Shown in pieces: positions 24,871-35,023 of a stretch of 64,000 bases of DNA. The notes beneath the pieces are model-generated. The model did no database searches. It worked only from the letters and a program-made list of their open reading frames with translations, and was not told the DNA's origin. Position numbers and translations under genes: made by a program. Numbering within the stretch: position 1 is the stretch's first letter; every line of letters begins with the position of its first letter. The stretch comes from Pontibacter roseus DSM 17521 (lineage in GTDB: Bacteria > Bacteroidota > Bacteroidia > Cytophagales > Hymenobacteraceae): positions 62,001 through 126,000 of the forward strand of contig NZ_KB890765.1 of NCBI RefSeq assembly GCF_000373265.1, given 5' to 3'.

Positions 24871-26379
24871 ATGGCTCACAACAAAGTAATCGTAATAGGT
24901 GCAGGTTTCTCCGGCTTGTCTGCCGCCACTTGTCTCGCTGACCAGGGCTATGAGGTGACGGTGCTCGAAAAGAACGCCACTCCTGGAGGGCGGGCCCGCA
25001 GCTTCGAAGCCAACGGCTATACCTTCGACATGGGGCCGAGCTGGTACTGGATGCCTGATGTGTTTGAGTCTTACTTCAACAAGTTCAACAAAAGCGTTTC
25101 CGATTACTATGACCTGGTGCGGCTGGACCCCTCCTACACAGTGGTGTTTGGAGAGGGTGATTTCGTGGATGTACCAGCTTCGCTGGATGAGCTGAAAACC
25201 CTGTTTGAAAATTGGGAGCCGGGGAGTGCTGCTCGTCTCGACAAATTCCTAGAGCAGGCCGCTTATAAATATGAAGTAGGCATCAACCAGCTCGTGTACA
25301 AGCCGGGCCGCTCGATGAGCGAGTTCATGAGCCTGCGTCTGTTGCTGGATGTGCTCCGCATGGATGTGTTCCAATCCATACATGCGCACATCCGCCGCTT
25401 CTTCTCGCACGAGAAAATCATCAAGCTGATGGAGTTCCCAGTGTTGTTCCTGGGTGCGCTACCGCAAAACACGCCGGCGCTTTATAGTCTGATGAACTAC
25501 GCCGATATCAGCCTGGGCACCTGGTATCCGATGGGTGGCATGTATAAGATAATCGAAGGGATGGTGCAGCTGGCTGAGGAGAAGGGCGTGGCTTTTCTCT
25601 ACGACCAGGATGTGCAGGCAATAGAGGTAGAGCAAGGTATAGCCCGCCGCGTACGCACCGCTTCCGGCGTATTCGAGGCTGACGTGGTGGTGGCCAGTGC
25701 AGACTATCACCATGTAGAGAAAAACCTCTTGGCTCCGGCCTACCAGAGTTATACAGACAAGTATTGGGACACACGTGTGATGGCGCCTTCCTGTTTGATT
25801 TTCTATTTAGGTATAGGCAAGAAATTGGAGAACCTGCGCCACCACAACCTGTTTTTTGATGAGGATTTCGGACCGCATGCACATGAGATTTATACTGACC
25901 CGAAATGGCCGGCCAAGCCGCTGTTTTATGTATCGGCGCCATCGGTGACGGACGCCAGCGTGGCGCCTGCCGGCTGTGAGAACCTGTTCGTGCTCATGCC
26001 GGTAGCTCCGGGACTGGAGGATACCGAGGGACTGCGCGAGCAGTACTATAATGTCATCATGGACCGGCTGGAGCACCTGACCAAGCAGGAGGTGCGCAGC
26101 GCTGTGGTGTACAAGCGCAGCTATGCCCACCGCGACTTCATGTCGGATTACAATGCCTTCAAGGGCAATGCCTATGGTCTGGCCAATACGCTGTTGCAGA
26201 CAGCACTGCTCAAGCCTAGTTTGAAGAGCAAGAAAATAAAGAACCTGTACTACGCGGGTCAGTTGACTGTGCCGGGCCCGGGCGTGCCGCCTTCCCTTAT
26301 TTCGGGGCAGGTCGTGGCCAAGGAAGTGGCGAAGGATTATGCACTGGCTCCGGGCCAGCGATTACCAGTGAGCAATTAA
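24871..26379 (+). CDS. crtI: Phytoene desaturase CrtI
   Basis: 502 residues. N-terminal FAD-binding motif VIVIGAGFSGLSAATCLADQGYEVTVLEKN with PGGRARSF and the family-specific GYTFDMGPSWYWMPDVFE. The C-terminal signature is NLYYAGQLTVPGPGVPPSLISG. CrtI desaturates phytoene, usually to lycopene, at the membrane using FAD. The product class here follows from the downstream lycopene cyclase. Followed 13 bases later by crtB. Confidence 0.96.
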   Translation: MAHNKVIVIGAGFSGLSAATCLADQGYEVTVLEKNATPGGRARSFEANGYTFDMGPSWYWMPDVFESYFNKFNKSVSDYYDLVRLDPSYTVVFGEGDFVDVPASLDELKTLFENWEPGSAARLDKFLEQAAYKYEVGINQLVYKPGRSMSEFMSLRLLLDVLRMDVFQSIHAHIRRFFSHEKIIKLMEFPVLFLGALPQNTPALYSLMNYADISLGTWYPMGGMYKIIEGMVQLAEEKGVAFLYDQDVQAIEVEQGIARRVRTASGVFEADVVVASADYHHVEKNLLAPAYQSYTDKYWDTRVMAPSCLIFYLGIGKKLENLRHHNLFFDEDFGPHAHEIYTDPKWPAKPLFYVSAPSVTDASVAPAGCENLFVLMPVAPGLEDTEGLREQYYNVIMDRLEHLTKQEVRSAVVYKRSYAHRDFMSDYNAFKGNAYGLANTLLQTALLKPSLKSKKIKNLYYAGQLTVPGPGVPPSLISGQVVAKEVAKDYALAPGQRLPVSN

Positions 26380-26392
26380 CTCCCCTGAAACT

Positions 26393-27226
26393 ATGGAGCT
26401 TTTCAAAGAAACCTGCCTGAAGTGCAGTAAGCTGATTACCGAGGCGTATAGCACGTCGTTCACGCTCGGCATCAAGACGCTGCACCGTAAATTCCATGCG
26501 CCCATCTACGCCATCTATGGCTTTGTGCGCTGCGCCGATGAGATAGTGGATACCTTTCACGACTACGATAAGCGCAAACTGCTCGACGAATTCAGCCGAC
26601 AGACTTATGAGGCCATTGAGCAGGGCATCAGCCTGAACCCGGTGCTGCATGCTTTCCAGTGCGTGGTGAACGAGTACAAAATAGACCGTACATACATTGA
26701 TGCCTTCCTGAAGAGCATGGCCATGGATTTGGATGACCACGTGTACGACCCGGCGCTGTACAAAGAGTACATCTACGGATCGGCCGAAGTGGTGGGGCTG
26801 ATGTGCCTGAAGGTGTTTTGCGAGGGCGATGCGGAGCAGTTTGAGCGCCTCAAGAAACCGGCCTGCAGTTTGGGCGCGGCTTTCCAGAAAGTGAACTTCC
26901 TGCGCGACATGCAGAGCGACTTCAAGGAGCGGGGAAGGGTGTACTTTCCATCCGTGGACATCCGCACGTTCAACAACGCGAGCAAGGAGGAGATTGAGGC
27001 CGATATCGCCAAAGACTTTGAGGATGCCTACGCCGGTATACTGGCTTTGCCCCGGTCTGCGCGCATGGGCGTATACCTGGCCTACGTGTATTACTTGAAG
27101 CTTTTCCGGAAAATCAGACACCTGCCGGCAACCCATATCTTAAATGAGCGCGTAAGAGTACCTGATAACAAGAAGTTTGCCCTACTTTTGGGCTCCTATG
27201 TCAGGTACCAACTAAATGCCATTTAG
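26393..27226 (+). CDS. crtB: Phytoene synthase CrtB
   Basis: 277 residues, squalene/phytoene synthase family. First Asp-rich motif in YGFVRCADEIVD, second in AFQKVNFLRDMQSDFKERGRVYFP. It condenses two geranylgeranyl-diphosphates to phytoene, the committed carotenoid step. It is tightly packed with crtI upstream and with the unknown exported protein downstream (3 bases). Confidence 0.96.
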   Translation: MELFKETCLKCSKLITEAYSTSFTLGIKTLHRKFHAPIYAIYGFVRCADEIVDTFHDYDKRKLLDEFSRQTYEAIEQGISLNPVLHAFQCVVNEYKIDRTYIDAFLKSMAMDLDDHVYDPALYKEYIYGSAEVVGLMCLKVFCEGDAEQFERLKKPACSLGAAFQKVNFLRDMQSDFKERGRVYFPSVDIRTFNNASKEEIEADIAKDFEDAYAGILALPRSARMGVYLAYVYYLKLFRKIRHLPATHILNERVRVPDNKKFALLLGSYVRYQLNAI

Positions 27227-27229
27227 CCC

Positions 27230-27766
27230 GTGAAGAATATTTTACTCTTACTTTCCGTCTTCCTCTTACTTCCATTCACCCTGCTGGCCGACAATTCCAG
27301 CGACTACAAACTGCCCGATTTGCGCACGCAGTTCCTGGAGGCCAGCAAAGACAGTCGTGCCGGCAAGGAATTTCATGAACTGATGAGCAACTACGAGGAC
27401 AACAACCCCGTGGTGCTGGCTTACAAAGCCATCTCGGAGGCCATCATGGCCAAACATGTCTGGAATCCCTACACGAAGATGAAACACCTGCAGAAGTCAT
27501 CAGAGGTGTTTGAAGAGGCGGTGAAGCTGGATGCGACCAATCCTGAAATCCGGTTTTTGCGCTTCACGGTGGAGCACTATGTGCCCCGTTACCTGAACAT
27601 GAGCAAGAACCTGCAGGACGACAAAGCCAAAATCATCGCGGGTCTGGAGCGCCATCCGAAGTCGGGTCTGTCAACGGACATGGCCCGCAACATTCGCGAC
27701 TTCATGCTAACCAAGGACCACTGCACGGAGCAGGAAAAACAAAGACTCAAAAGTATACCCATTTAA
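27230..27766 (+). CDS. Unknown exported protein inside the carotenoid operon
   Basis: 178 residues from GTG at 27230. A signal peptide is clear (MKNILLLLSVFLLLPFTLLAD), so the mature protein is periplasmic or exported. The mature part is alpha-helical with TPR-like spacing, e.g. NPVVLAYKAISEAIMAKHVWNP and SSEVFEEAVKLDATNPEIRFLR. No catalytic motif is recognised. It is placed between crtB and the lycopene cyclase with gaps of 3 and 5 bases, so it is translated with them. A role in carotenoid handling or envelope placement is possible but unproven. Confidence 0.82.
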   Translation: MKNILLLLSVFLLLPFTLLADNSSDYKLPDLRTQFLEASKDSRAGKEFHELMSNYEDNNPVVLAYKAISEAIMAKHVWNPYTKMKHLQKSSEVFEEAVKLDATNPEIRFLRFTVEHYVPRYLNMSKNLQDDKAKIIAGLERHPKSGLSTDMARNIRDFMLTKDHCTEQEKQRLKSIPI

Positions 27767-27771
27767 ACAAC

Positions 27772-28470
27772 ATGCCCCTCTACCTATACCTGAACATCTT
27801 CACCATCCTGTTCCCGCTGTTGCTCTCGTTTGACAGGAAAGTGGCCTTTTACAAGAACTGGCCATACCTCTGGCCGGCCATCGGCATCAACGCGGGTCTG
27901 TTCATCATCTGGGACTCGTTGTTCACAGAGGCGGGTATTTGGGGCTTCAATGAGGAATATCTGGTTGGGATATACCTGTTCAGCCTGCCGTTTGAGGAGA
28001 TTCTTTTCTTTATCACGGTGCCTTACGCCTGTGTGTTCATTTACGAGTGCCTCAATGTTTACATCATAAAAGACCTCTTGCAGCCTTATGCAAAAGGTAT
28101 AACCTTCCTGCTTATACCTGTGCTGCTGCTGTTGGCTGTCTTCAACCTGGAGCGACTCTATACCTTCATCACCTTCACCTTGCTGGCTGCCATGCTGGGG
28201 CTGCATTACTATTATTTTAATACCCAGAAACTGGGGCGGTTTTACCTGGCGTACATCGTGCACCTGGTGCCTTTCCTGCTGGTGAACGGCGTGCTGACTT
28301 ACCTGCCGATCGTGTGGTATAACAATAGCCACAATCTAAGCCTGCGTATTGTGTCTATACCTGTAGAGGACACTATGTACTCCATGCTCATGCTGCTGCT
28401 CACGATTTCAATCTATGAGGGGCTGAAACAGCGGTTTGCCGTTAAACAATATCAGAAGATGGCTGTATAA
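27772..28470 (+). CDS. Lycopene cyclase, fused CrtYc-CrtYd type
   Basis: 232 residues, nearly all hydrophobic, with about seven predicted membrane helices. Two lycopene-cyclase domains are recognised by their acidic motifs: LPFEEILFF (about residue 75) and IPVEDTMYS (about 198). This heterodimer-type cyclase, fused into one chain, converts lycopene to beta-carotene. It replaces the soluble CrtY type. The gene lies 5 bases after the unknown exported protein and 6 bases before ispH. Confidence 0.92.
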   Translation: MPLYLYLNIFTILFPLLLSFDRKVAFYKNWPYLWPAIGINAGLFIIWDSLFTEAGIWGFNEEYLVGIYLFSLPFEEILFFITVPYACVFIYECLNVYIIKDLLQPYAKGITFLLIPVLLLLAVFNLERLYTFITFTLLAAMLGLHYYYFNTQKLGRFYLAYIVHLVPFLLVNGVLTYLPIVWYNNSHNLSLRIVSIPVEDTMYSMLMLLLTISIYEGLKQRFAVKQYQKMAV

Positions 28471-28476
28471 CAGTAT

Positions 28477-29328
28477 ATGAGGAACCTCCAGGTCACAATC
28501 GATTCAAACTCAGGCTTCTGCTTCGGCGTGGTGTACGCCATCCAAATGGCGGAGGACATACTCGACGAGCAGGGATATCTCTATTGTTTGGGTGACATCG
28601 TGCACAACGACGTGGAGGTAGAGCGCCTGCAGCAGCGGGGCCTGCGCATCATTGACCATGCCCAACTGCGGGAACTGCGCAATGAATCGGTGCTGATACG
28701 GGCGCATGGCGAGCCGCCCCAGACGTACCACGTGGCCATGCAGAACAACCTGACCCTGATAGACGCTTCCTGTCCGGTGGTGCTCAAACTGCAGAACCGT
28801 ATCAAGACGTCTTATGACAAGGACGAGCGCATCTTCATCTATGGAAAGCACGGGCATGCGGAGGTGATGGGCCTGTTGGGGCAGACGAGCAACAAAGCGG
28901 TTGTATTTGAGAGCGTGGAGGAACTGATGCAGCACGAACTGCCATCTAAAATCACGCTCTACAGCCAGACCACTAAAAGCACCAACAGCTTTTACAACAT
29001 CAAGAATACGCTGGAACAGCAGGGGTACGAAGTCGATGCCAATGACACCATCTGCCGGCAAGTGTCTAACCGCGACAAAGATTTGCGGAAGTTTGCCGCC
29101 CAGTTCGATAAGATTATCTTCGTGTCAGGCACCAAGTCAAGCAATGGCAAAGTGCTTTACCAGGTATGCAAGGATACCAACCCGGCCACGTACTTTGTGT
29201 CGAAGGTGGAGGAACTGCAGCCGGAGTGGTTTGCCGACGGCGACACCGTAGGGATTTGCGGCGCTACTTCTACTCCCATGTGGCTGATGGAAGAAGTGCG
29301 GGACGCGCTCCTGCGGCAGACGGTATAG
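28477..29328 (+). CDS. ispH: 4-hydroxy-3-methylbut-2-enyl diphosphate reductase (IspH/LytB)
   Basis: 283 residues. The three cluster-binding cysteines are Cys15 (GFCFGV), Cys99 (DASCPVV) and Cys193 (DTICRQ). The substrate histidines fit HN in LGDIVHNDVEV and RAHGEP. IspH makes IPP and DMAPP in the final MEP-pathway step. Co-transcription with crt genes gives precursor supply together with carotenoid synthesis. The stop codon TAG is inside a tandem GGTATAGGTATAGCC. Confidence 0.96.
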   Translation: MRNLQVTIDSNSGFCFGVVYAIQMAEDILDEQGYLYCLGDIVHNDVEVERLQQRGLRIIDHAQLRELRNESVLIRAHGEPPQTYHVAMQNNLTLIDASCPVVLKLQNRIKTSYDKDERIFIYGKHGHAEVMGLLGQTSNKAVVFESVEELMQHELPSKITLYSQTTKSTNSFYNIKNTLEQQGYEVDANDTICRQVSNRDKDLRKFAAQFDKIIFVSGTKSSNGKVLYQVCKDTNPATYFVSKVEELQPEWFADGDTVGICGATSTPMWLMEEVRDALLRQTV

Positions 29329-29381
29329 GTATAGCCTAATTTTTGAACCGTGTTCAGGTGTAGCCTGTTCCTAGAATTCAT

Positions 29382-30071
29382 ATGGCAAAGACAATCAAAC
29401 GGGATAATAGAGGTATAGCGGTGGCGGCTACGATAGTGGCCTGCTGGTTTGGCCTGCTCGCCTACCTGTTGCATTTTCCGATTGACTTTTCTTCGCCGCT
29501 GCCCTACCTGTTCCTGCTGCTGCAGACGCACCTGTATACCGGCCTTTTCATCACGGCCCACGACGCCATGCATGGCGTAGTCGCTCCCGGCAGACCCACG
29601 CTGAATCGCCTTATCGGGACTGTTACTGCTTTCCTGTTCGCTTACAACTGGTATCCGCGTCTGTTGCCTAAACACCACCAGCACCACCGCCACGTGGCCA
29701 CGGAGGAGGATCCTGACTATCACCACGGTTCTTTCTGGCCCTGGTATTACAGCTTTCTGAAGAACTACATCACCTGGTGGCAAATCGTGCTTATGGCCAT
29801 TACTTACAATGTGCTGCAGCTGTTCTTCCCGCTTGAGAATGTTATCATGTTCTGGATGGTCCCTGCAATACTGGCCACGTTCCAGCTTTTCTACTTCGGT
29901 ACTTACCTGCCGCACCGCGGAGAGCATGCGCCTGAGAATCGGCATAAGTCGGGTACGCAGGCCAAGAACCATCTGTGGGCCTTTGTGAGCTGCTACTTCT
30001 TCGGGTACCATTACGAGCACCACGACAAACCCTATCTGCCTTGGTGGCAGCTGTACAAAGCAAAAGGGTAG
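29382..30071 (+). CDS. crtW: Beta-carotene ketolase-like (CrtW) fatty-acid-desaturase-family protein
   Basis: 229 residues, membrane desaturase family. Histidine boxes: HDAMHG, PKHHQHHRHVATEEDPD and GYHYEHHDKPYLPWW. The EDPD and PWW elements match CrtW ketolases rather than general desaturases. CrtW adds 4-keto groups to beta-carotene or zeaxanthin. With CrtZ upstream the likely end products are canthaxanthin- or astaxanthin-type pigments; the real product needs chemistry. The stop codon lies within the terminator stem. Confidence 0.88.
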   Translation: MAKTIKRDNRGIAVAATIVACWFGLLAYLLHFPIDFSSPLPYLFLLLQTHLYTGLFITAHDAMHGVVAPGRPTLNRLIGTVTAFLFAYNWYPRLLPKHHQHHRHVATEEDPDYHHGSFWPWYYSFLKNYITWWQIVLMAITYNVLQLFFPLENVIMFWMVPAILATFQLFYFGTYLPHRGEHAPENRHKSGTQAKNHLWAFVSCYFFGYHYEHHDKPYLPWWQLYKAKG

Positions 30072-33259: not shown

Positions 33260-33263
33260 GGCA

Positions 33264-33271
33264 CAAATATA
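33264..33271 (-). promoter_or_regulatory. -7 box of the HYC_CC_PP gene
   Basis: TATATTTG on the minus strand, a full match to TAnnTTTG. No well-spaced -33 TTG. It is only 4 bases before the GTG start, suggesting a leaderless or very short-leader transcript. Confidence 0.45.
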
Positions 33272-33301
33272 CGCATATCCTCTGAACAAAAGAACCAATC
33301 T

Positions 33302-33558
33302 TTATCCACTTTGGGGATAGCGCCCCACTTTGTCCCACCTTCCCCACTTTGTCCCACTTTTCGAAAATCAACTTGCTTAGCCCTGTCAGGTATAGTGACT
33401 TTTAAGGTTAACTCTCTGTGAAACAAAATGTTATAATATTGCCTCTCTCGTATATTATGGATTAGGTATGTTTTATGCAAATAAACTTATCCGCAAAATG
33501 ACGCGACCAAATGTGGATAATGTGGATAAGTGGGGTGGATAACCGTAATTTATCCACA
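33302..33558. other. DnaA-box cluster: candidate replication origin or DnaA-controlled promoter
   Basis: The gene-free stretch 33260-33653 holds six DnaA-type 9-mers. Three are perfect TTATCCACA or its complement (33512-33520, 33521-33529, 33550-33558). Three differ by one base (33302-33310, 33487-33495, 33534-33542). Two perfect boxes abut directly. Between the left and right groups is an AT-rich segment (about 33420-33490), as expected for an unwinding element. 16-bp direct repeats lie at 33323-33357. dnaA itself is not in the window. Whether this is oriC or a DnaA-regulated dcw promoter cannot be decided here. Confidence 0.6.
33323..33357. repeat. Two 16-bp perfect direct repeats
   Basis: CCCCACTTTGTCCCAC at 33323-33338 and 33342-33357, period 19 bases. 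Related CCAC-TTTG text occurs in the neighbouring DnaA-like site (33302-33314) and, inverted, after the last DnaA box (CCACAAAGTGG). The iteron-like layout is seen; the function is unknown. Confidence 0.8.
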
Positions 33559-33584
33559 AAGTGGTAAAAAGTGGGAGATTGTGG

Positions 33585-33614
33585 TTGTGCTGATTTGCTG
33601 AATCGTTACATTTG
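33585..33614 (+). promoter_or_regulatory. Promoter of mraZ and the dcw operon
   Basis: TTG (33585-33587), 19 bases, then TACATTTG (33607-33614), a full match to the Bacteroidota consensus. It is 27 bases beyond the last DnaA box and 39 bases before the mraZ start. MraZ usually represses its own operon through repeats in this region; clear MraZ boxes were not identified. Confidence 0.68.
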
Positions 33615-33653
33615 TATACTCCGAAAACTATACGGATTAAACTGTCGCAACCC

Positions 33654-34121
33654 ATGAACTTCCTGTCTGGCGAATATGAATGCAAGATTGATCCGAAGGG
33701 AAGGTTGGTTTTACCTGCAAAGATAAAATCAAACCTACCGGAGGCGTCGGGCAATCATGTGGTGCTGACAAGAGGCTTCGAGCCCTGTCTGGTGCTCTAC
33801 CCCAAGTCGGAGTGGAAGTCGATTTACGACAAGGTGGCGGGGCTGAATGAGTTCAATGAGGAGTACCGCCACTTCCAGCGCAATTTCTTCCGTGGCAACA
33901 CGGAGATTGAACTGGACGGCACAGGCCGCTTTATCGTGCCCCGCACGATGGCGCGCTTCGCCGATTTGGAGAAAGAGGCGATTGTGGTGGGCTTGGGCAA
34001 CCGCGTGGAGATTTGGAACCCGGACAAGTATGAGGATTTCCTCATCAAGGACCAGCAGAATTTCTCGCAGCTCGCCCAGAAGTTTTTAGGTGACAAGCAG
34101 GAGGAGGAACCACAGGTATAA
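33654..34121 (+). CDS. mraZ: Transcriptional regulator MraZ
   Basis: 155 residues from ATG at 33654 (MNFLSGEYECKIDPKGRLVLP). Two AbrB-like SpoVT domains are seen: DPKGRLVLPAKIK and DGTGRFIVPRTMARFADL. MraZ binds DNA upstream of the dcw operon and controls it. The last codons, CAG GTA TAA, are a copy of the window-wide AGGTATA word. The stop overlaps the rsmH start by one base (TAATG). Confidence 0.96.
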   Translation: MNFLSGEYECKIDPKGRLVLPAKIKSNLPEASGNHVVLTRGFEPCLVLYPKSEWKSIYDKVAGLNEFNEEYRHFQRNFFRGNTEIELDGTGRFIVPRTMARFADLEKEAIVVGLGNRVEIWNPDKYEDFLIKDQQNFSQLAQKFLGDKQEEEPQV

Positions 34122-35023
34122 TGGAGTACCATCGCCCTGTCATGTTGCAAGAGTGTATTGATGCCCTGGCTATTAAGCCCGACGGCATCTATGTGGATGT
34201 CACGTTTGGAGGGGGAGGCCATTCGGCCCTCATTGCCAGCAAGCTTACAACCGGTAAGCTGTACTCGTTCGATCAGGACCGTGATGCCCAGGAGCAGTCA
34301 AAGAAAATCGAAAACCCGGCCTTTACGTTTGTGCGCGCCAACTTCAGGGACCTGAAGAAGTACCTGCGCCTGTACCGCGTGAAGGAGGTGGACGGCATCT
34401 TGGCTGACTTGGGTGTTTCGTCGCATCAGTTCAACGTGGCTGAGCGTGGTTTTTCCACCCGCTTCGACGGCCCGCTGGACATGCGCATGGACCCGGAGGC
34501 AGGCACGCCAGCGAGCGAAATCGTGAACACTTACAGCCAGGAGCAACTGCACCGGCTGTTCGGCATCTACGGCGAAGTGAAAAACGCCAAGACGCTGGCT
34601 AGTGTCATTGTGGCGCAGCGGGCCCGCAAGCCGATTGAGACAATCGGCGACTTCAAGCAGGCCATCAGTTCCTGTACCCCCCGTGGGAAGGAGAACAAAT
34701 ACCTGGCGCAAGTGTTTCAGGCGCTTCGCATTGAAGTGAACGACGAGATGAAGGCGCTGGAGGAGATGCTGGAGCAGGCGGCGGAAATGCTGAAGCCCGG
34801 TGGACGGCTGGTGGTGATGTCCTACCACTCGCTGGAAGACAGGCTGGTGAAGAACTTCATTGCGAAGGGCAAGTTTTTCGGGGAGGTGGAGAAAGACCTG
34901 TTCGGAAACGAGATAAAGCCGCTCGAGGCCGTCAGCCGCAAGCCTATCGTGCCATCAGAGCAGGAGCTCCTGGAAAACAGCCGCTCCCGTAGCGCAAAAC
35001 TTAGAATAGCAGAGAAGAAATAA
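34121..35023 (+). CDS. rsmH: 16S rRNA (cytosine(1402)-N(4))-methyltransferase
   Basis: 300 residues, standard length. Starts EYHRPVMLQECIDAL; SAM-binding motif YVDVTFGGGGHSALI; other family motifs GILADLGVSSHQFN, RGFSTRFDGPLDMRMD and VMSYHSLEDRLVKNF. It methylates N4 of C1402 in 16S rRNA. Second gene of the dcw operon, coupled to mraZ. Confidence 0.97.
   Translation: MEYHRPVMLQECIDALAIKPDGIYVDVTFGGGGHSALIASKLTTGKLYSFDQDRDAQEQSKKIENPAFTFVRANFRDLKKYLRLYRVKEVDGILADLGVSSHQFNVAERGFSTRFDGPLDMRMDPEAGTPASEIVNTYSQEQLHRLFGIYGEVKNAKTLASVIVAQRARKPIETIGDFKQAISSCTPRGKENKYLAQVFQALRIEVNDEMKALEEMLEQAAEMLKPGGRLVVMSYHSLEDRLVKNFIAKGKFFGEVEKDLFGNEIKPLEAVSRKPIVPSEQELLENSRSRSAKLRIAEKK

Follow-up and report, generated by a model that had tools for sequence, protein, structure and literature searches.

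We propose that positions 33512-33614 of a 64,000-nucleotide stretch of the Pontibacter roseus DSM 17521 genome (the window) are probably a composite DnaA/MraZ operator and promoter of the dcw operon, at which the replication initiator would tune dcw expression. The window lies on contig C5 (626,903 bp) of a 4.58-Mb genome in 12 contigs. The first-pass annotation had seen a cluster of DnaA boxes before mraZ and had read it as a candidate oriC or, alternatively, as a site from which DnaA directly regulates the dcw operon. The cluster is real and strongly conserved among relatives. For the regulatory reading we found conservation, recurrence in other families, and a geometry that is fixed relative to both promoter and MraZ array; the binding of DnaA itself stays a prediction.

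To define the cluster, we performed a pattern scan of the 64-kb window. This resulted in three perfect DnaA boxes (TTATCCACA) at 33512-33520 (-), 33521-33529 (-) and 33550-33558 (+), and one-mismatch boxes at 33302 (+), 33487 (+) and 33534 (-). Four of these lie together: box 1 (33512-33520), box 2 (33521-33529), which abuts box 1, box 3 (33534-33542, minus strand, TTATCCACC, one mismatch) and box 4 (33550-33558), with starts spaced 9, 13 and 16 nt and boxes 3 and 4 in opposed orientation. Box 2 is an exact match, as are boxes 1 and 4, and the box at 33487-33495 (+) is an outlying one-mismatch box, TTATCCGCA. The 394 bp of gene-free DNA before mraZ (33260-33653) contain 3 perfect boxes and 6 at one mismatch or fewer; in 2000 dinucleotide shuffles of this region, perfect boxes reached a maximum of 1 (mean 0.0065) and boxes at one mismatch or fewer a maximum of 3 (mean 0.18). 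The originally noted three perfect and three one-mismatch boxes, two of the perfect ones abutting, are thus confirmed far above shuffles. The total for the 64-kb window at one mismatch or fewer was unremarkable (17 versus 12 expected, a count reached by 13 of 100 shuffles), so the signal is the clustering. Across the whole 4.58-Mb genome we found 43 exact box sites (31 for a reversed-pattern control), among which the three before mraZ form the only tight triple. Perfect-box pairs with starts 10 and 15 nt apart lie at C1:582663-582681 (L082) and C1:715558-715581 (L083), and other Pontibacter genomes have perfect-box pairs spaced alike. The AT-rich segment that had been described is present at 33399-33480 (AT 0.71); the repeats called "iteron-like" proved to be two arrays of GTGG units at 9-10 nt (with one 19-nt step), not iterons.

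The predicted mraZ/dcw promoter (33585-33614, +) consists of TTG at 33585-33587, a gap of 19 nt and TACATTTG at 33607-33614, following the form TTG-N19-TAnnTTTG, which we take to be the usual promoter of the host's phylum. The first two genes of the dcw cluster follow on the same strand: mraZ (33654-34121; TIGR00242, E = 1.3e-35, over cut-off) and rsmH, or mraW (34121-35023; TIGR00006, E = 2.6e-98). The proximal GTGG array, a predicted MraZ operator (33559-33588, +), has three units at a 10-nt period (33561, 33571 and 33581). These units touch the -33 element, and the DnaA boxes lie just upstream, box 4 abutting the first unit. Direct GTG(G/T) repeats with a 10-nt period before mraZ are what an MraZ operator would look like, and the pattern resembles (AAAGTGKN3)3 (PMC5282649), the MraZ operator of Mollicutes (Fisunov 2016, as quoted in PMC5282649 and PMC8475190). 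The distal array (33304-33363, -; units at 33306, 33325, 33335, 33344 and 33354) is on the side of the divergent gene and covers most of the outlying box at 33302. It points toward that gene and is kept in 54/54 Pontibacter-like loci, where CCAC-N6-CCAC occurs in all 54 (shuffles 0.4), compared with 0/27 in Hymenobacter. Through it MraZ may regulate the divergent gene, or may form a loop that joins both arrays. Elsewhere in the window, carotenoid-synthesis-like genes occupy 24871-30071, including an apparent phytoene desaturase and synthase recognized by eye and a CrtW-like ketolase with an NCBIfam match below cut-off.

To assess conservation, we collected 80 mraZ loci: L001-L053 from Pontibacter, Botryobacter, Rufibacter, Adhaeribacter and Sabulibacter, and L054-L080 from Hymenobacter. 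The best mraZ matches were Pontibacter records, the first nine having 93-94% protein identity. In the 300 bp before mraZ, the 54 Pontibacter-like upstream regions, the window included, contain 142 perfect boxes distributed over 54/54 loci, compared with 0.4 in shuffles, and we found no perfect box elsewhere in these 54 loci (up to 10 kb each). In L001-L053 the box set lies at about -142, -133, -120 and -104 from the mraZ start, with one or more boxes changed in some loci. Box alignment and promoter spacing were determined for 53 of the 54 Pontibacter-like loci, L049 being omitted for want of an exact anchor. Box 4 is perfect in all 53 aligned loci, box 1 in 50 and box 2 in 37. The sequence in which box 4 meets the first MraZ unit (TTATCCACAAAGTGG) occurs once in 53/54 loci, TAnnTTTG lies 57 nt past the start of box 4 in 53/53 anchored loci, and the promoter TTG lies 22 nt before TAnnTTTG in 52/53. 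Proximal units at 10 nt number at least two in 54/54 Pontibacter-like loci and three in 49/54. The division operon promoter is thus preceded by conserved canonical boxes whose position does not vary, as would be expected of a DnaA-regulated division promoter. The conserved part is the four boxes at 33512-33558. The outlying box at 33487 is found in 10/54 loci (the window and nine near relatives), the same ten carry the outlying box at 33302, and one-mismatch boxes are scattered at roughly similar places in some other loci (e.g., L025, L028 and L037).

Box 3 is perfect in 0/53 aligned loci, with one mismatch in 50 and two in 3 (TTATCCACC in 26, TAATCCACA in 16, TTATCCACT in 7, TTATCAACC in 3 and TTATCTACA in 1). 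On a tree of the downstream DNA its state changes at least 12 times and is never perfect in the 53 rows, which is suggestive of a box held weak by selection. We rejected this as proof of selection for weakness: if the one-mismatch states were equally likely to be chosen, finding no perfect box would be unsurprising. Compensation between the two variable positions of box 3 gave a p value of 0.5, from 2 usable pairs only.

Next, we characterized the distribution of the arrangement across Bacteroidota, using family sets f7, f4, f5, f8 and f2 (the best 30 of 44, 40, 59, 39 and 39 genomes with an HMM match, respectively) in which start codons were placed via tblastn and may be off by some codons. 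At a guess, f5 is Chitinophagaceae and f7 is Flavobacteriaceae. In the 300 bp before mraZ, f5 has 21 perfect boxes in 13/30 loci (best 30 of 59; shuffles 0.2) in another layout, f2 has 4 in 3/30 (best 30 of 39; shuffles 0.1), and f7, f4 and f8 (best 30 of 44, 40 and 39) have none. The 27 Hymenobacter loci have no perfect box before mraZ and a single one-mismatch box in all. At one mismatch or fewer, the counts (shuffle means in brackets; best 30 loci for each family set) were 66 (3.4) in f5, 24 (4.1) in f7, 23 (2.5) in f4, 9 (3.1) in f8, 6 (4.1) in f2 and 1 (1.4) in Hymenobacter. Canonical TTATNCACA before mraZ was near shuffles in f7 (2 sites) and f4 (1 site; best 30 loci each). Perfect boxes were present in three of 40 single loci across the phylum, all three from f5, and 16 loci of other classes (L168-L183) had no perfect box, with one-mismatch boxes in one locus. 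By eye, f5 (L204-L233) also has tandem box-like repeats about 150-230 nt before mraZ, a second and different layout.

A DnaA-box-like site of the form TTWTNMACA lies within 40 nt 5' of the MraZ array in 52/54 Pontibacter-like loci and, among the best 30 loci each, in 24/30 of f5, 29/30 of f7 and 28/30 of f4, the f7 and f4 counts not being independent tests because the motif was widened after those sites had been inspected. Shuffle means were 1.1-2.0 for these four groups and 0.5-2.0 across all groups. The motif was absent beside the MraZ array in 27 Hymenobacter and 28 f2 loci (the latter from the best 30 of 39), and f8 was near chance (5/28, from the best 30 of 39; shuffle mean 2.0, maximum 5). 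For f7 and f4 the counts establish that a site is conserved and fixed in position, but do not identify it as a DnaA box; binding of DnaA to these variants would be a guess. The commonest layout (plus strand, 11 nt before the first GTGG) is found in 41 loci of the window group and 22 f7 loci (best 30 of 44). Nearly every locus in all seven groups has the MraZ-type units themselves, as a GTGG-N6-GTGK pair or three 10-nt units, with 27/27 in Hymenobacter. Because Hymenobacter and f2 have no adjacent box, f8 is near chance and the 16 loci of other classes have no perfect box, the coupling is not general.

We then compared the DnaA proteins. Pontibacter DnaA has FGGRDHSTV where domain IV of E. coli DnaA (1j1v) has FGGRDHTTV. 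In f7 DnaA (L354-L383, best 30 of 44), GKRDH replaces GGRDH in 24/30, with Q in 4, S in 1 and H in 1 at that position, and the f7 site (TTATNAACA) and the recognition motif may have changed together. The regions upstream of f7 dnaA (best 30 of 44 loci) count against such a co-change, with 5 canonical TTATNCACA sites versus 1 TTATNAACA site, and this reduced the probability that we assign to the following broader reading. It is a tentative possibility that, in much of the class Bacteroidia, the dcw promoter has a composite DnaA-MraZ operator of ancient origin that has been lost and reshaped several times. Initiator and division repressor would have a common site there, and the level of the initiator would directly gate expression of the division genes. 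A perfect box also precedes dnaA, in P. roseus at C1:1092756 (L084 2757-2765). Of 22 Pontibacter loci for which the sequence before dnaA was available, 12 have such a box, between about -132 and -158; DnaA autoregulation through it is possible.

In the mechanism that we propose, MraZ would bind the three GTGG units beside the -33 element and repress its own operon, and DnaA would bind the four boxes just upstream. Because box 4 abuts the first MraZ unit, DnaA and MraZ would likely either touch or compete for space. In this way dcw transcription could respond to how much free DnaA, perhaps in its ATP-bound form, is present, which would tie the division genes to replication status, and the sub-optimal box 3 could restrict completion of the complex to higher DnaA levels. 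Binding by the two proteins, repression by MraZ, their competition and the sign of the DnaA effect are all inferred from sequence. We favour DnaA as an activator or anti-repressor, given that its boxes precede both the MraZ array and the promoter, but co-repression has almost the same likelihood.

Could the boxes instead be read by MraZ or another factor, with DnaA playing no part? We consider this unlikely, though boxes and MraZ units both contain GTGG, almost every locus of the deeply sampled families has MraZ-type arrays, and the f7 and f4 variants deviate from the canonical DnaA box. The box starts are not 10 nt apart as the MraZ units are, and box 4 is on the other strand from the remaining boxes. 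Box 2 is TTATGCACA or TTATACACA in 12/53 loci and changed in other ways in 4/53; those 12 of the 16 non-perfect loci differ only at the fifth position, which the DnaA consensus TT[A/T]TNCACA leaves free (PMC8682772), and since such changes destroy GTGG they speak against MraZ as the reader. Rufibacter and f7 variants likewise lose GTGG and keep TTATN. MraZ as sole reader of the boxes is thus disfavoured by both the spacing and the relatives.

It is quite unlikely that the boxes serve mainly in replication control, as a datA- or DARS-like site for DnaA titration or nucleotide exchange whose location at mraZ is a coincidence. The box arrangement is fixed, boxes 3 and 4 are opposed, the weak box is conserved and the site in a second Pontibacter genome, G526, is mid-arm; DARS cores, as described in the available part of PMC8682772, have three DnaA boxes of which I and II are in opposing orientation, and datA/DARS sites also include IHF/Fis sites. 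However, a box-like site persists beside the MraZ array across families despite differences in number, strand and spacing, which fits the promoter role better.

To evaluate the site as an origin, we sampled GC skew. Both halves of the window have positive skew, as do 15/15 samples of C5, on both sides of the site. On contig C1 it is negative in 5/5 samples up to 210 kb and positive in 15/17 from 285 kb, with the minimum at 284.5 kb (joined stretch 200-292 kb); dnaA lies at C1:1.093 Mb, versus about 0.284 Mb for the minimum. Samples of C2, C6, C7, C9 and C10 had small mixed skews, C2 being mostly positive and then negative and C6 rising weakly from mixed to positive (-0.009, +0.015, -0.014, +0.029, +0.060). 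As the sampling covered C1, C2, C5, C6, C7, C9 and C10 of the 12 contigs, the C1 minimum rests also on G526, which has a near-complete chromosome (main contig 4.77 Mb) and an mraZ of 93% protein identity. In G526, skew is positive in 7/7 samples at 0-1.5 Mb, negative in 8/8 at 1.75-3.5 Mb, positive at 3.75 Mb, negative at 3.95 Mb and positive in 3/3 from 4.03 Mb, with the minimum at 4.017 Mb (joined stretch 3.95-4.05 Mb). The same three perfect boxes precede mraZ in G526 (2,513,550-2,513,596), about 1.5 Mb from this minimum and flanked to the left and right by negative skew. The 20 skew samples from Adhaeribacter aquaticus did not divide cleanly into two phases, and skew was positive to either side of mraZ.

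Close to each of the two minima, one and the same gene is preceded by an intergenic region, at C1:291,767-292,991 (L432 767-1991) and G526:4,026,232-4,027,131 (L431), each with 15 box-like sites at two mismatches or fewer (shuffles 3.5 and 2.8, respectively). These two regions have no perfect box and are not beside dnaA, and the intergenic DNA of the positionally equivalent regions did not align; they are likely the oriC, and a better candidate than the mraZ site. The mraZ site, for all its cluster of perfect boxes, AT-rich stretch and gene-free DNA, shows no skew switch on C5, lies about 1.5 Mb from the minimum in G526, competes with a region near the minimum that has many weak boxes, and has Hymenobacter counterparts with no perfect box before mraZ, so that a chromosomal origin here is extremely improbable and the oriC proposal is contradicted by skew in both genomes.

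How cells link division to replication initiation has long been an open problem, and in the model bacteria that the available parts of our sources cover, direct coupling by way of DnaA-controlled transcription has had weak or no effects. In E. coli, the three DnaA boxes upstream of ftsZ (the ftsQA boxes) turned out not to contribute to ftsZ transcription, and in no bacterium has the transcriptional activity of DnaA been shown to affect the timing of cytokinesis in a major way (PMC8203912, in the part available). Likewise, as excerpted, RsmH and PbpB levels appeared wild-type-like in B. subtilis upon replication arrest (PMC11019786), and DnaA action as a transcription factor in E. coli was unaffected by an altered nucleotide ratio or titration (PMC12371093). 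The dcw site adds a candidate from another phylum that is small, conserved and easy to mutate, and for which Hymenobacter is a natural control, with MraZ-type units in 27/27 loci and perfect boxes in 0/27. In the open-licence literature we found no paper whose title or opening abstract lines name this Bacteroidota promoter as regulated by DnaA and MraZ; that DnaA can control division genes is already known, and the DnaA-MraZ arrangement at the Bacteroidota dcw promoter was not found in that literature.

The ftsL operon of B. subtilis is presumably headed by mraZ (yllB). There, DnaA binds the ftsL promoter region (Goranov 2005, via PMC8203912 and PMC11019786), and RsmH and PbpB are also products of that operon (PMC11019786); the site described here is similar in that it would likewise place DnaA at a division operon promoter. 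It differs in phylum and in having an MraZ array beside the boxes, which, going by the available parts of these sources, is described only here. In Caulobacter crescentus, DnaA binds the ftsZ promoter, and the ftsZ, gcrA and podJ promoters are DnaA-dependent (PMC8203912), again an initiator at division and cell-cycle genes; a dcw promoter with MraZ units is, as far as that excerpt covers, particular to our case. Binding was found by ChIP in B. subtilis and in vitro in Caulobacter, whereas the Pontibacter site is known from its sequence alone. The Mollicutes MraZ operator shares the GTG units, the 10-nt period and the position before mraZ, and the DnaA boxes are described only here, to the extent that PMC5282649 and PMC8475190 were available. 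Finally, at the E. coli mioC promoter an MraZ site overlaps a DnaA box (Eraso 2014, via PMC4446571), so that sites for both proteins likewise occur at one promoter; unlike mioC, which adjoins oriC, the promoter proposed here drives mraZ itself and, judging by G526, lies a long way from the skew minimum.
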